Part shown: positions 998 through 63,262 of the stretch, in pieces | Position numbering within the stretch: position 1 is the first letter of the stretch | How the letters are laid out: every line of letters begins with the position of its first letter | Source: Fusibacillus kribbianus | Lineage (GTDB): Bacteria; Bacillota; Clostridia; Lachnospirales; Lachnospiraceae | Direction: 5' to 3' | Assembly (NCBI RefSeq): GCF_030053595.1 | Contig: NZ_JASGBQ010000010.1 | Span: 1 to 64,000 of the forward strand | DNA: 64,000 nt | Program-made: the position numbers and the translations under genes | Notes under the pieces: model-generated | Told to the model about the DNA's origin: nothing | The model's database searches: none | What the model saw: the letters and a program-made list of their open reading frames with translations, nothing else

Positions 998-2176
998 TTA
1001 GTGATGGAACAAACGGATTCCCGTGTATACCATCGCCATGCCATACTTATTGCAGGCATCGATTACCAGATCATCACGGATGGAACCACCAGGCTGAGCG
1101 ATATACTTCACGCCGCTTCTTTGAGCCCGATCAATATTATCTGAGAAGGGGAAGAATGCGTCCGAACCCAGAGTAACATCCTGAAGCTGATCTAACCATG
1201 CCCGCTTTTCTTCTCTTGTAAACACCTCCGGCTTCTCCTCAAAGATCCGCTCCCAGGCACCGTCTGCCAGAACGTCCATATAGTCCTCTCCGATGTACAG
1301 GTCAATCGCATTGTCGCGATCCGCACGGCCAATGGTATCCTTAAACTTCAGTCCCAGTACCTTCGGACACTGGCGAAGGAACCAGTTATCAGCCTTGGAG
1401 CCTGCCAATCGTGTGCAATGAATACGGGACTGCTGACCGGCACCGATACCGATGGCCTGTCCGTCTTTTACAAAGCATACGGAGTTGGACTGTGTGTACT
1501 TAAGGGTAATCAGTGCAATCGCCATATCGATCTTTGCAGACTCCGGAATCTCTTTGTTCTCAGTCACGATGTTAGCCAGAAGCTCATCATCCACCTTCAG
1601 CTCGTTGCGGCCCTGTTCAAAGGTGATCCCAAATACCTGCTTGCGCTCTATCGGATCCGGTACATAATCCGGATCAATCTGAATCACATTGTAATTGCCC
1701 TTCTTCTTTGCTTTCAGGATCTCCAAAGCCTCATCGGTATAACCGGGAGCAATCACACCATCCGACACTTCACGCTTGATCAGAAGTGCTGTATCCTTGT
1801 CACATACATCAGACAGGGAAATAAAATCACCAAAGGATGACATCCGGTCTGCACCACGGGCTCTCGCATATGCACAGGCTAAGGGGGACAGTTCACCCAG
1901 GTCATCTACCCAGTAGATCTTTGCCAGCGTATCTGTCAGTGGCAGGCCGACTGCTGCGCCAGCCGGTGATACATGTTTAAAAGATGTTGCTGCCGGCAGA
2001 CCCGTAGCTGCCTTCAGCTCCCGTACCAGCTGCCAGCCATTAAAAGCATCCAGAAAGTTAATATAGCCGGGGCGGCCGCTCAGTACCTGAATCGGAAGAT
2101 CACTTCCATCCTCCATGAAGATCCGGGAGGGTTTCTGGTTAGGGTTACAGCCGTATTTTAATGCCAATTCGTTCAT
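998..2176 (-). CDS. AICAR formyltransferase, stand-alone domain (PurH-like)
   Basis: A 392-residue protein corresponding to the transformylase half of bifunctional PurH. It should formylate AICAR to FAICAR with 10-formyl-THF, the penultimate step of IMP synthesis. Visible hallmarks are TSFKHVSPAGAAVGLPL and the IGIGAGQQSRIHCTRLAG segment of the AICARFT fold. The N-terminal IMP cyclohydrolase (MGS-like) domain of E. coli PurH is absent; the missing activity is supplied by the gene directly upstream, 23 bases away. Both are downstream of a ZTP riboswitch that senses the substrate's own phosphorylated form. The ATG has a GGAAGAAG-type site. Length matches the separate clostridial form. Confidence 0.92.
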   Translation of the reverse strand: MNELALKYGCNPNQKPSRIFMEDGSDLPIQVLSGRPGYINFLDAFNGWQLVRELKAATGLPAATSFKHVSPAGAAVGLPLTDTLAKIYWVDDLGELSPLACAYARARGADRMSSFGDFISLSDVCDKDTALLIKREVSDGVIAPGYTDEALEILKAKKKGNYNVIQIDPDYVPDPIERKQVFGITFEQGRNELKVDDELLANIVTENKEIPESAKIDMAIALITLKYTQSNSVCFVKDGQAIGIGAGQQSRIHCTRLAGSKADNWFLRQCPKVLGLKFKDTIGRADRDNAIDLYIGEDYMDVLADGAWERIFEEKPEVFTREEKRAWLDQLQDVTLGSDAFFPFSDNIDRAQRSGVKYIAQPGGSIRDDLVIDACNKYGMAMVYTGIRLFHH

Positions 2177-2199: not shown

Positions 2200-2913
2200 C
2201 TACACATTTTTATTTACAATTCTGGTCTCGTACTTCCCTGTTGCGATGTCAATATAGCGCACAAACAGAGAAACCTTATTATCCTCGTTCAGGCTCTCCC
2301 ACAGCATCCCGGTGAACTCATCAATGTCCTCCTCGATTGCCACCAGCTTGGGTTCTCCCTCAAAGCTCGGCAGCGGATTGCCGTCATGCATGTACGTATG
2401 AATAAAGCGGCCTTCACCAGCCTTCGGATGCTCATAGGCAAATGTGAAACGATTGCAGCAGGACGGATCCCCCTGATCGCTCTTCAGGATCGACATGGCA
2501 TAATTGTACTTTCCGTTCTCAATGTGCATCACACCGGAAATCCGAGGGGTATAGTTGGGGCCATCCGGTTCAAATTCACGGCTGCGCAGAGACTGTTCAA
2601 AGGTCATCTGATGGTCCATTCCCTCATAAATGGTATCCGTCTGATCCCCGTTGGTCACAATCGTCTTGTTGCCCAACACACGAACCGGTGCATAGATGAT
2701 CAGGCTGGGGTCAGATAATTTGCTCGGATCGAAGGCCTGTGTCCGAATACCCTCGCCATCCTCAACAAATACACGGTTGCGGCTGTTTACACTCCGTCCC
2801 ATAATGAAATACGCGGTTACAGCTTTCGTTCCGTCCAGAGACTTCCCGATCACGATCCCTCTTCCGGGATAAGCATTCTGACTTAACTCTTCTCTCAATG
2901 ACAGTTTCTGCAT
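2200..2913 (-). CDS. purO: IMP cyclohydrolase, PurO type
   Basis: A 237-residue protein beginning MQKLSLREELSQNAYPGRGI. It matches the archaeal-type IMP cyclohydrolase (IMP_cyclohyd, PurO), which closes the FAICAR ring to give IMP. Typical segments are AYFIMGRSVNSRNRVF, the YAPVRVLG strand, PNYTPRISGVMH and the FIHTYMHDGNPLPSFEGEP stretch. The ATG at 2913 is preceded by AGGAGG with five-base spacing. It is the first gene of a two-gene operon with the AICAR formyltransferase. Its 5' leader is very long (about 620 nt) and carries a riboswitch, a terminator and a repeat array. The split arrangement replaces bifunctional PurH. Confidence 0.92.
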   Translation of the reverse strand: MQKLSLREELSQNAYPGRGIVIGKSLDGTKAVTAYFIMGRSVNSRNRVFVEDGEGIRTQAFDPSKLSDPSLIIYAPVRVLGNKTIVTNGDQTDTIYEGMDHQMTFEQSLRSREFEPDGPNYTPRISGVMHIENGKYNYAMSILKSDQGDPSCCNRFTFAYEHPKAGEGRFIHTYMHDGNPLPSFEGEPKLVAIEEDIDEFTGMLWESLNEDNKVSLFVRYIDIATGKYETRIVNKNV

Positions 2914-2943
2914 GGTTACCTCCTAAATGTATGATGATTTCAT

Positions 2944-3343
2944 TGCTTCGCATTTCCTCGCCGCCCCGCTCCAATTGCTTCGCATTTCTCGCTTGGGGCG
3001 GTCGCCTCGCTTTCTCTCCGCTCCTCGCCGCACTGCTCCAAATGCTTCGCATTTCTCACTTGGGGCGGTCGCCTCGCTTTCTCTCCGCTCCTCGCCGCAC
3101 TGCTCCAAATGCTTCGCATTTCTCGCTTGGGGCGGTCGCCTCGCTTTCTCTCCGCTCCTCGCCGCCCCGCTCCAATTGCTTCGCATTTCTCGCTTGGGGC
3201 GGTCGCCTCGCTTTCTCTCCGCTCCTCGCCGCCCCGCTCCAAATGCTTCGCATTTCTCGCTTGGGGCGGTCGCCTCGCTTTCTCCCCGCTCCTCGCCGCC
3301 CCGCTCCAAATGCTTCGCATTTCTCGCTTGGGGCGGTCGCCCC
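2944..3343. repeat. 67-bp tandem repeat array with internal hairpins
   Basis: The core GCTTCGCATTT recurs at 2977, 3044, 3111, 3178, 3245 and 3312, exactly 67 bases apart, with a shortened first copy at 2945. Each unit carries the small palindrome AAATGC-TTC-GCATTT. Most also carry a CCGCCCC/GGGGCGG pair; two units have CCGCACTG instead, which breaks that stem. Because 67 is not a multiple of three, every frame stays open on both strands; these frames are not genes. One strand is strongly purine-rich. The array lies between the ZTP riboswitch terminator and purO, so it should be transcribed as leader RNA whenever the riboswitch allows read-through. Confidence 0.9.
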
Positions 3344-3345
3344 AT

Positions 3346-3411
3346 AGCTCAGAAAGCGAACAGCCTCACCGGTGAGCAAGCTCCCCGTGAGGCCTGTTCA
3401 CTTTCTGAGCT
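3346..3411. other. Long imperfect hairpin between riboswitch and repeats
   Basis: AGCTCAGAAAG at 3346-3356 pairs with CTTTCTGAGCT at 3401-3411. The pairing continues inward through GAACAG/CTGTTC and CCTCAC/GTGAGG, with one mismatch and one bulge. Neither strand has a T run after it, so it does not look like a simple terminator. In the purO transcript it would be a stable stem of about 24 base pairs between the riboswitch terminator and the 67-bp repeats. Confidence 0.75.
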
Positions 3412-3427
3412 GCGCGGCTCGTCGCTA

Positions 3428-3473
3428 ACAAAAATACCGCCTGGGTTGCTCCTTTTCTAAGCGCCCAGGCGGT
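3428..3473 (-). terminator. Riboswitch-controlled intrinsic terminator
   Basis: On the minus strand, ACCGCCTGGG (complement of 3464-3473) pairs with CCCAGGCGGT (complement of 3436-3445) and is followed by ATTTTTGTT. The 5' arm is itself the conserved CCGCCTGGGC box of the ZTP aptamer. Ligand binding should therefore sequester that arm and prevent termination, giving more purO-purH expression when ZMP/ZTP accumulates. Confidence 0.8.
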
Positions 3474-3534
3474 CGACATTCTTTCATAACGTGCTCCCTG
3501 TGGTTTCCCCACTGATCCGCCAGTCGCACGCTGC
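3462..3534 (-). promoter_or_regulatory. ZTP (pfl) riboswitch aptamer
   Basis: Reading the minus strand, the segment contains GACTGGCGG (3517-3525), the GTGGGGAAACCAC hairpin and AGGGAGCACG. It ends in the conserved box CCGCCTGGGC (3463-3472). These are the diagnostic parts of the pfl/ZTP riboswitch, which binds ZMP or ZTP (AICAR nucleotides) as a signal of 10-formyl-THF shortage. The downstream genes use exactly that metabolite. The start lies about seven bases after a sigma-A -10 element. I assign this by motif and context; no covariance search was possible. Confidence 0.85.
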
Positions 3535-3540
3535 GATTTA

Positions 3541-3663: not shown

Positions 3664-5310
3664 CTATTTTGCTCTTTTCTTCTTACCGTAAACCGTTGTT
3701 CCGATTACGCCTGCTCCGCTCACAAAGAGAAGTGCAATCCACAATGCCATGTTGCTGCTATCTCCGGTCTGCGGAGACTTGGTGTCATTATTTGCATTTT
3801 CTTCCGCTTTCGCATTCACGGTAAATGTTGTGGAAGCAGTACCGCTCTCGGATACAATGCCGATGCTATGCTTGCCGGCTGAAAGTGTGGCTACATAATC
3901 AGCCTTTAAGGTTACAACCGTACTGCCTTCCTTGACGGTATAATTCTTCTCATCAAGGGTTTTCCCGTCAAGCTGGGCACGAACAAAATCGCTGAACGCC
4001 GCATTTGATTTGAAAGTAAGCTCTTTCTTATCTCCTGCGGTTATGCTCTGTCCTTTGCCCTCAATGATTTCAGGCGAGAACTTTGAAATTACCGTGTCCT
4101 CAAGCTTAATTTCGTTTGTGCCTTTTTCATCGGCGAAGTATTTTCCGCAATCTTTACAATGCCAATACTCCTTGTTTCCTGCTGCGGTTACGGTTGCATC
4201 CTTTGCAGGAATCTTTTCAAGATTATGATTTGTGCTGTCAAGCTCATCGTACTCTTCGCCACAGGTATCGCAGACCGCCTTGCTTATGCAGGTGGCTGTG
4301 CCGCCGGTGTGCTGGGATAATATTTTTCTGCAAATGTCACACTTATGATCTTTCGGGTCTTCATCGACACACTCATGACCTGCAGTATCAAAGCTGATTT
4401 TATCTACGGCAATAAGTGCCGTATAAGCCGGTACGGTAAAGGTAGAGCCGCTGACCTCGTCAAGCTTTTCTACGCCGGCTGAGACGCCGTTGGCGATTAC
4501 TACCCACTCGGTAACGGAAGTATCCTTAAGCGTTATCTCGGTAGGAGCGGAATCACTGTTATAGATAACCGCCATCTTACTCCACTCGCCGGGCGTGTCG
4601 TTGGCGATAGTGAAGGCGATTTGCTTTGAAGCGTCGGTCATATTACCGTTAAAAATGTACGCATCACTGTACGAATTATCCGCACAGGTCAAAGGAGTAA
4701 AGTGTTTTCTTATATTAGAAAGTCCCTTGTAGTATGAAACAACGTCAGCATAATCAACTACATTCTGCCACTTAATCATATTAACTTCAGGATGTGACTT
4801 GAAGCTGTTTGTGTCGCCGTCCTTGCTGCGGCACATTTCCTCGCCTGCGAGCATAAATGAAATACCCTGTGATGTGTAAACAATTGCACCGCCGAGCTTG
4901 TTCATCTTCACTGCTGTTGACTCACGAACTCCGTAAGAAGCCAGTCCTGTTGAACCGAGAATCTGGTCGTAGAGAGTTGCGTTGTCGTGGCTGGATGCAT
5001 ATGATACGCACTGTGAGGGTGCGCTTGCAAGCCACTTGTTTCCGCCGGATGAGTTGGCGCTTACACCATATCTGATGTCGGGAGCAGAAGTTTCTGCACC
5101 CTGAACGAAGCCCTGGTTTGAAATGCTCATACAACCGCCCGTGATACCGTCACGGATTGCATCGTTAAAGAGAGCGATTCTGTCGCTGAGCTTTGCAGCG
5201 TTAGCCTGTGTAGCAGGATAGAACTTTTCACCTGTGCATGTATTTGTGGGATGATATGAGGCACCGCCTGCCCAGCCTTCGCCCCATGTTGTGATTCTTG
5301 CTCCGGTTTG
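3664..5310 (-). pseudogene. 5'-truncated cell-wall-anchored type I pullulanase (GH13)
   Basis: The frame runs 548 codons from just behind a TAG at 5311-5313. It is homologous to the C-terminal part of pullulanase. It keeps the GH13 region with the acid/base Glu (TTWGEGW) and the SSHDN region. It lacks the N-terminal modules and the earlier GH13 regions, including the nucleophile Asp, so it cannot be catalytic alone. C-terminal parts are a beta domain, a Cys-pair module (HKCDICRK, HCKDCGKYF), a sortase-like SPQTGD motif, a membrane helix and KKKRAK. Internal ATG 5130 has no role I can support. In frame behind it lies truncated sigK. It is a deletion or transfer relic, or an assembly join. Confidence 0.75.
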
Positions 5311-5628
5311 CTATTCGGGGGGATTGGCTTGGAACCATAAACGCATCTGTGAGAGGATAGCATTATCAATGCACTTGGCGGCGTAGGTTCCCAGCCTGCT
5401 CGAACGCTCCGGATTAAAGGTATCCACCGCCTTAATAAGCCCAATGGTTCCAATGGAGATCAGATCCTCCAGCTCGTGATCTGTCTGACTGTATTTTTTC
5501 ACAATGTGGGCCACCAGACGCATATTTCGCTCGATCAGTACATGCTTCGCTTTCTGTTCCCCCTGTCGCAGCTGATCTAAAAAAATCCGCTCTTCCGAAG
5601 CGGTCAGGGGTTTCAGGAAAGTTTTCAT
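5311..5628 (-). pseudogene. sigK: N-terminal part of sporulation sigma factor SigK
   Basis: A 105-residue ORF with AGGAG eight bases before the ATG. It aligns with the start of late mother-cell sigma factor SigK: KPLTASEERIFLDQL, ERNMRLVAHIVKKY and DLISIGTIGLIKAV, then GTYAAKCIDNAIL, after which homology stops. Regions 2.1-2.3 are present; the rest of region 2 and regions 3-4 (needed for -35 recognition) are missing. There is no membrane pro-sequence, as in C. difficile SigK. The break lies next to CIDN, the codons homologous to the spot where skin elements split sigK in B. subtilis. It is either a dead fragment or the 5' half of a gene rebuilt by excision in the mother cell. Confidence 0.8.
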
Positions 5629-62015: not shown

Positions 62016-63152
62016 TCAGGCAAACAGCTTTTTCAGAGCTTCCTCATTTATGTGAGAACCGATCACGCACAGACGGCCCGTAACTGCTGCCGAACCGTCA
62101 CGGACATTTTTTTCACCGGGCACATAATCAAAATGAAGGAATCCTTCCCCGGCTCCGGCCACAATTCCCTTGGCTCGGAGGATCGTTCCGTATTGTTCGC
62201 TGTCATCCAATGCCTCCAGCGCCCGCTCAAGCTCCTCCTTCGTAAATCTTCTGGTCGTCTCCACGCCCCAGCTGGTGAACACCTCATCTGCATGATGATG
62301 GTGATGGTCATGATCGTGGTCATGGCCGCAGCAGCAGTCTCCGTCATGATGATGGTCATGATCATGATGGTCGTGATCATGATCGTGGTGGTCATGATCG
62401 TGATGGTCGTGATCGTGATGGTCGTGATCATGGTCGTGGCCGCAGCAGCAGTCTTCCCCGTGATGATGCTCATGGTCATGATCGTGATCATCGTGGTGAT
62501 GATGGTCGTGATCGTGATGGGCTTCCTCTTCCAGCTCCCGAAGCTCTTCTTCCAGAGTATCCTTATGCTCCATGGCTTCCAGGATCTGTGCTCCGGAAAG
62601 CTGATCCCAGGGAGTCGTAATGATCGTTGCCACCGAATTATGCTCTCTTAAAAGCTCCACGCAGGCCGCCAGCTTCTGGTCGGAGATCCCGTCGGTGCGG
62701 CTTAATATAATGGAATTGGCGTGTTCCACCTGGTCATTGTAAAACTCACCGAAGTTCTTCATATACATTTTGCATTTTCCCGCATCAGCTACGGCTGTAA
62801 AGCTGTTTAAGGACACATCCTCCATATGAAGATTCTGCACCGCGCGGATCACATCACTCAGCTTGCCGACACCGGAGGGCTCAATGAGTATTCTGTCCGG
62901 ATGGAACTGATCCAGCACCTTTTTCAGAGCTTCGCCAAAGTCACCTACCAGACTGCAGCAGATACAGCCGGAATTCATCTCGGTGATCTCAATGCCGGAA
63001 TCCTGCAGAAAACCGCCGTCAATGGCGATTTCGCCGAATTCGTTTTCAATCAGCACAAGCTTCTCGCCTGCGAAAGCTTCCTTGATCAGCTTTTTGATCA
63101 GAGTTGTCTTTCCGGCTCCCAGAAAACCGGAAAAAATATCTATTTTTGTCAT
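62016..63152 (-). CDS. COG0523 metallochaperone GTPase with long His/Cys-rich tract
   Basis: A 378-residue CobW-type GTPase. The P-loop GFLGAGKT is at residues 9-16, the COG0523 motif CICC at 63-66 and the switch region LIENEFGE at 34-41. Residues 212-287 are almost only His and Asp, with the block DCCCGHDHDHDHH present twice, at 234-246 and 272-284. The C-terminal CobW_C domain follows. Such proteins store or deliver zinc, cobalt or nickel. I cannot name the metal. The ATG at 63152 is chosen as the family start; the longer frame is leader. It heads a three-gene unit. Confidence 0.92.
   Translation of the reverse strand: MTKIDIFSGFLGAGKTTLIKKLIKEAFAGEKLVLIENEFGEIAIDGGFLQDSGIEITEMNSGCICCSLVGDFGEALKKVLDQFHPDRILIEPSGVGKLSDVIRAVQNLHMEDVSLNSFTAVADAGKCKMYMKNFGEFYNDQVEHANSIILSRTDGISDQKLAACVELLREHNSVATIITTPWDQLSGAQILEAMEHKDTLEEELRELEEEAHHDHDHHHHDDHDHDHEHHHGEDCCCGHDHDHDHHDHDHHDHDHHDHDHDHHDHDHHHDGDCCCGHDHDHDHHHHHADEVFTSWGVETTRRFTKEELERALEALDDSEQYGTILRAKGIVAGAGEGFLHFDYVPGEKNVRDGSAAVTGRLCVIGSHINEEALKKLFA
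62292..62519 (-). repeat. His/Asp-coding low-complexity tract
   Basis: DNA encoding residues 212-287 of the COG0523 GTPase. It is built from short near-repeats of CATGAT- and GATGGTCGT-type units, with two larger copies of the DCCCGHDHDHDHH-coding block. Such DNA can change length by slippage. Confidence 0.85.
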
Positions 63153-63262
63153 GATTTCTTCTTCCTTTCTCTTATTAAATTGCAGGCAGAAGCCCGCAGG
63201 ACATATTTTAATGCTTTTTTCCAGAAGTTGCAAGCCCCTTTGTCCCGCATCCCATCATTGCC

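Follow-up and report, generated by a model that had tools for sequence, protein, structure and literature searches.

The 67-bp tandem array in front of purO in Fusibacillus kribbianus is the tandem-amplified P3-P4-P1' module of a cloverleaf-shaped interspersed element that is common in Lachnospiraceae. In the analyzed stretch of 64,000 nucleotides (the window), the full element spans positions 3418-2942 of the minus strand, with the 67-base repeats as its 3' part. An expanded repeat family was one of the options left open by the original prediction, and this option is borne out. We consider it highly probable that the purO copy is a structured, partly mobile repeat that was inserted after the ZTP riboswitch terminator, amplified locally and passively transcribed, and that it lies outside the purine switch.

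The array is present where it was first described. TRF reports a 67-bp period at 2955-3341 (5.8 copies, 96% matches, score 718), and six GACCGCCCC cores are spaced at exactly 67 bases in units that differ at few positions. With up to three mismatches allowed, GAAATGCGAAGCATTT is seen 7 times vs. 0.96 expected in shuffles, and 7 is reached in none of 100 shuffles. The seventh P4 core is truncated and lies 32 nt from the neighboring core. On the minus strand the order is ZTP aptamer, terminator, long hairpin (3411-3346), array, purO, and purH (Table 1), and from this gene order the array would be transcribed within the purO-purH leader. The earlier placement between the ZTP terminator and purO, in a presumed leader, thus agrees with the aptamer match (59.4 bits) and the terminator at 3473-3430; these two features are complete without the array, which lies outside the switch as had been proposed. 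Predicted folding also agrees with the description of a small palindrome and an outer stem in each unit.

Table 1. Positions of the cloverleaf element, its parts and the adjoining features in the window
Feature	Position	Strand	Basis
ZMP/ZTP riboswitch aptamer	3456..3537	-	Rfam RF01750, 59.4 bits, gathering 39
Riboswitch intrinsic terminator, ACCGCCTGGG..CCCAGGCGGT then TATTTTT	3430..3473	-	sequence
Complete cloverleaf copy P1-P2-P3-P4-P1'	3294..3422	-	R1 62.8 bits, R2 76.3 bits, RF01699 34.4 bits
P1 5' arm GCCGCGC	3412..3418	-	R2 match starts at 3418; pairing with P1' copies counted
P2, long hairpin, GAGCTTGCTC tip	3346..3411	-	inverted repeat; full-length R1 and R2 matches
P3, GGGGCGACCGCCCC hairpin, first module	3330..3343	-	R1 alignment, sequence
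P4, AGCGAGAAATGCGAAGCATTTGGAGC hairpin, first module	3303..3328	-	R1 alignment
P1' GGGCGGC, 6/7 pairs with 5' arm	3295..3301	-	pairing count
Six tandem 67-bp modules (P3 3' half, P4, P1', purine linker)	2957..3338	-	TRF, core spacing
67-bp module starts (last module truncated)	3338, 3271, 3204, 3137, 3070, 3003	-	
Unit 4 P1' GTGCGGC, 7/7 pairs with P1 5' arm	3094..3100	-	pairing count
Unit 5 P1' GTGCGGC, 7/7 pairs with P1 5' arm	3027..3033	-	pairing count
Truncated seventh P4 core	2942..2956	-	inverted-repeat/core analysis
purO (IMP cyclohydrolase), downstream gene	2200..2913	-	sub-cutoff PurO profile matches
purH-type AICAR formyltransferase	998..2176	-	NF005492, 730 bits

Elsewhere in the window (3664-5130 and 5311-5628), the C-terminal fragment of a pullulanase, which has a sortase signal, adjoins a sigma-factor gene that seems to be truncated, with only Sigma70 region 2 present; this suggests gene decay or rearrangement upstream of the riboswitch. 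The gene at 62016-63233 encodes a GTPase-like protein of the CobW/G3E type and includes a repetitive tract (62296-62520) that specifies a long His/Asp-rich stretch.

The long hairpin and the repeats belong to a single element, of which the array is the multiplied 3' module. In the predicted cloverleaf, P1 is followed by a long P2 that ends in a GCUUGC loop, by a short P3 and by P4 (AGCGA..GCGAAGC..GAGC); the interval first delimited covers the repeat array but leaves out positions 3418-3344, which make up the 5' half. The original prediction also held that two units carry a change breaking one stem. The local CCGCCCC/GGGGCGG stem is indeed disrupted in units 4 and 5, which have AGTGCGG in place of GGGGCGG, but the same change gives full pairing with GCCGCGC (7/7 vs. 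6/7 elsewhere). We read the GTGCGGC of these two units as a candidate for the older P1' strand, and the local stem of the remaining units is probably secondary. A change common to units 3 and 6 breaks one P4 pair. Compensatory changes, proposed earlier as a check, were searched for among the array units and none was seen, so the units provide no evidence for selection on the array stems.

Membership in a wider family is established with models built without the window copy. A looser P4 pattern, AGCGANNNATGCGAAGCATNNNGAGC, identifies 36 loci, 35 of them titled Lachnospiraceae or its genera and 1 an uncultured bacterium, and in most of these P4 is the last hairpin after an outer P1, a long P2 tipped GCTTGC and a short P3. 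Folding z-scores of family elements range from -8.6 to -12.7. The first covariance model (R1) was made from 13 elements of other species; in its alignment 36 of 51 pairs are changed on both sides, with a score of 0.334 vs. 0.150 in shuffled alignments that is reached by none of 500 shuffles. Because the search pattern itself prescribed the P4 core, conservation of that core within the R1 set is uninformative; the covariation is carried by P1, P2 and P3. Searched against its own genome, the window copy (3422-3294) is the top R1 match, at full length (E 8e-14, 62.8 bits), and a second model (R2), built mainly from same-genus copies, scores it at 76.3 bits. Significant matches to R1 and R2 place the window copy in the Lachnospiraceae cloverleaf family.

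R1 finds at least 5 further copies in the same genome (contigs C6, C34, C13 (two), C1, and C5), a count that is a lower bound because the model searches score part of the candidates. Seven of the 11 congeneric genomes have matches, as do 93 of the 150 Lachnospiraceae genomes sampled, with a maximum of 23 per genome. Of 196 genomes sampled across the class, 10 contain matches, 6 within Lachnospiraceae and only 4 outside. Tandem expansion of the 3' end is a habit of this family: P4 is repeated downstream in 9 of the 51 elements surveyed, and half of the 8 elements in the genome of the window are expanded (67 × 5.8, 53 × 4.7, 106 × 2.7, and 114 × 1.8).

In other genera, part of the family moves by transposition. 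Ten copies from each of two genomes of two such genera (G025 and G029) are near-identical elements with differing flanks, and their ends are GTAAC[A/T]GTTCAG and its complement. Among 20 distinct TIR-bounded copies, 17 agree between the two flanks at 7 or more of 8 bases, vs. 1% in mismatched pairs, and at length 8 only; i.e. the target duplications are 8 bp, at A/T-rich sites. In a locus from another genus (L028), purO is preceded at ~96 nt by an antisense, differently built element that is flanked by an exact 8-bp duplication. IS66 elements have GTAA ends. They also generate 8-bp target duplications (PMC3281130), and the ends and duplications seen here recall IS66. In the loci examined, a search for an autonomous IS66 partner found no TIR pairs at transposon distance (0.6-6 kb). 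Like IS66-like MITEs, the family copies of some genera are short and non-coding, with GTAAC.. inverted ends and 8-bp duplications, whereas the window copy lacks GTAAC ends and any recognizable target duplication and shares with MITEs the presence of dispersed genomic copies.

Two prophage-like viral contigs (L188 and L219) each contain a short GTAACWGTTCAG-bounded element with flanking duplications of 7/8 and 8/8. For the array, a phage origin was rejected, as two repeat patterns had no match in viral contigs, and so were plasmid relatives: only purO matched, and a query with a mobile copy of the family matched nothing. Relatives of purO itself are found in 251 of 299 family genomes, yet in 0 of 10 other genomes of the same genus; possible explanations are transfer, a loss specific to the lineage or mis-binning of the contig.

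The genomic contexts of other copies bear on whether the element does anything for its host. Elements of the same architecture are found after genes that we take, from their C-terminal peptides, to be tuf, groEL, rpsI, and a rubrerythrin-like gene, as well as after other genes, and many copies begin 0-25 nt past the stop codons of these four. The tuf, rpsI, and rubrerythrin-like sites are occupied in several genera, and at the tuf and rubrerythrin-like sites the shared pairs show more both-side than one-side changes in most, indeed nearly all, comparisons. These recurring sites and paired double changes suggest vertical descent and selection, beyond selfish spread. Three elements lie between a regulatory terminator and a gene. 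Besides ZTP-purO, these are a copy in the same genome between the terminator of the pheS T-box leader and the pheS start (L106, 1231-1661), and one in another genus where a TPP riboswitch and a terminator-like hairpin are followed by a cloverleaf with perfect inverted ends GTGATAAGCAGA and then thiW (L158, 1768-1464, minus strand). Such post-terminator placement could be due to insertion into the A/T-rich tails of terminators or to a leader role, and the numbers are small (n = 3).

The cloverleaf could therefore be a host RNA element of 3' UTRs or leaders, selected for processing, stability or post-termination control, with the purO copy acting likewise. The shared sites behind tuf and the rubrerythrin-like gene, the proximity to groEL, rpsI, and tuf stop codons and the three riboswitch or T-box leaders with an element directly past the terminator all speak for this account, which we regard as quite possible but on balance doubtful. 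Against it are the target duplications and dispersed near-identical copies of some genomes and the lack of compensatory changes among the array units; moreover, gene conversion or re-insertion could imitate conservation.

We favor instead a partly mobile repeat that would be cargo in the purO leader. The window copy would have entered the A/T-rich stretch just past the ZTP terminator, by a transposition-type event or by descent from one. The 3' module may then have multiplied via slippage or unequal recombination, to which the variants common to units 3 and 6 and to units 4 and 5 point. When ZTP opens the switch, RNA polymerase would read through the element and produce a purOH leader with ~480 nt of highly structured RNA. 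The likeliest effect is passive, i.e. added 5' structure with no role in ligand sensing; in addition, RNase III may cleave the long P2 helix, or the mRNA may be stabilized to some degree. The purO start region has a predicted accessibility of 0.59 both with and without the element. The element is most likely cargo in the purOH leader and would be read only with the ZTP switch on.

A purine-specific regulator that acts alongside the ZTP riboswitch, by pausing, protein binding or as a second sensor, would fit the location between the ZTP terminator and purO and the very stable predicted fold (z -9.7). Stable folding is, however, common to the whole cloverleaf family, identical architecture stands beside unrelated genes, and the array is absent from the purO loci of 29 other genera in the family. 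Among 20 scanned purO loci, 9 have a ZTP aptamer, and none of the purO leaders has the array. A link to purine control is not supported, and we consider such a regulator very unlikely. Regarding the scatter over unrelated sites that the original prediction raised as a counter-sign, the architecture is indeed scattered at other genes, but the 67-bp sequence is unique to the purO locus.

That uniqueness would also suit an ordinary minisatellite with no element family behind it. The 67-bp unit has no second copy in its own genome, the whole unit is absent from other genomes (a family sample of 200 and a class sample of 391), and a 20-mer from the linker is absent from 84,980 species with one genome each. 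Yet RF01699 and both covariance models, which are independent of each other, match at full length, and comparable 3' expansions occur in other copies; these results already contradict this explanation, which is highly improbable. Least credible of all is a repetitive Arg-rich protein or leader peptide encoded by the array: the consensus unit is stop-free in all six frames and a 140-aa frame ends 10 nt ahead of purO, but 67 is not divisible by 3 and the frame shifts with every unit, the ATG at 3345 has no ribosome-binding site, and neither strand is more open than the other, a feature also of large pneumococcal BOX elements (PMC3049150), so that we rejected coding and attribute the six open frames to composition.

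These results place an orphan Rfam family, Clostridiales-1, in a wider frame: multiple copies within a genome, signs of transposition in some genera, conserved sites elsewhere and modular expansion. Only a little short of an even chance, in our estimate, is the broader proposal of a large, partly mobile superfamily of cloverleaves in Lachnospiraceae, with Clostridiales-1-like RNAs as its curated tip. Its members would insert in A/T-rich sites such as terminator T-tracts, grow BOX-like via their 3' module, and become established again and again downstream of housekeeping genes and of riboswitch or T-box terminators, where they would act on mRNA. The findings also warn that structured leader sequence beside a riboswitch may belong to an interspersed element and lie outside the switch, and they make testable the question of whether the cloverleaves are parasites or adopted 3'-end and leader elements.

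Among known systems, the ZTP (pfl) riboswitch lies just upstream with its own terminator; the array is outside aptamer and terminator, and relatives have the switch without the array. REP sequences are short hairpins with GTAG/CGTC tags that go with a RAYT transposase. They are 20-40 bp long (PMC3733652) and differ from the cloverleaf in architecture. In the literature on Lachnospiraceae we found no description of array-related repeats, the only related entry being the listing of Clostridiales-1. This candidate RNA is rated, in the part of the source available to us, as "probably" an RNA and probably not cis-regulatory, with occurrence in Clostridiales and human gut (PMC2864571), and that part makes no mention of tandem modules, terminal repeats or target duplications. 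Its model, RF01699, aligns over its full length (positions 1-166) with the window copy at 34.4 bits (E 8.7e-6), which is below the gathering threshold of 48, so the window copy is a divergent relative and no formal member. The cmscan alignment nevertheless shows the P1-P2-P3-P4 cloverleaf with the GCUUGC loop on P2, and the order is the same in both, i.e. P1, a long P2 with a GCUUGC tip, P3, and P4 tipped GCGUAGC/GCGAAGC. Two other copies score 40.1 and 38.6 bits, and most copies found in the present survey also fall below the 48-bit cutoff, whereas a copy behind tuf found by R1 (L132) exceeds it with 51.7 bits. Clostridiales-1 RNA thus belongs to the same cloverleaf family.

Pneumococcal BOX elements are parasitic, non-autonomous mobile elements with a variable number of inner modules; they have stop-free frames on both strands, and one BOX occurs with T-box leaders (PMC3049150). 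BOX belongs to another lineage and has another module architecture, in which boxA/boxC ends enclose boxB modules, and our comparison concerns architecture alone and shows no homology. In that respect, the cloverleaf family is, like BOX, a modular structured repeat with a multiplied module, open frames on both strands and sites near T-box leaders.
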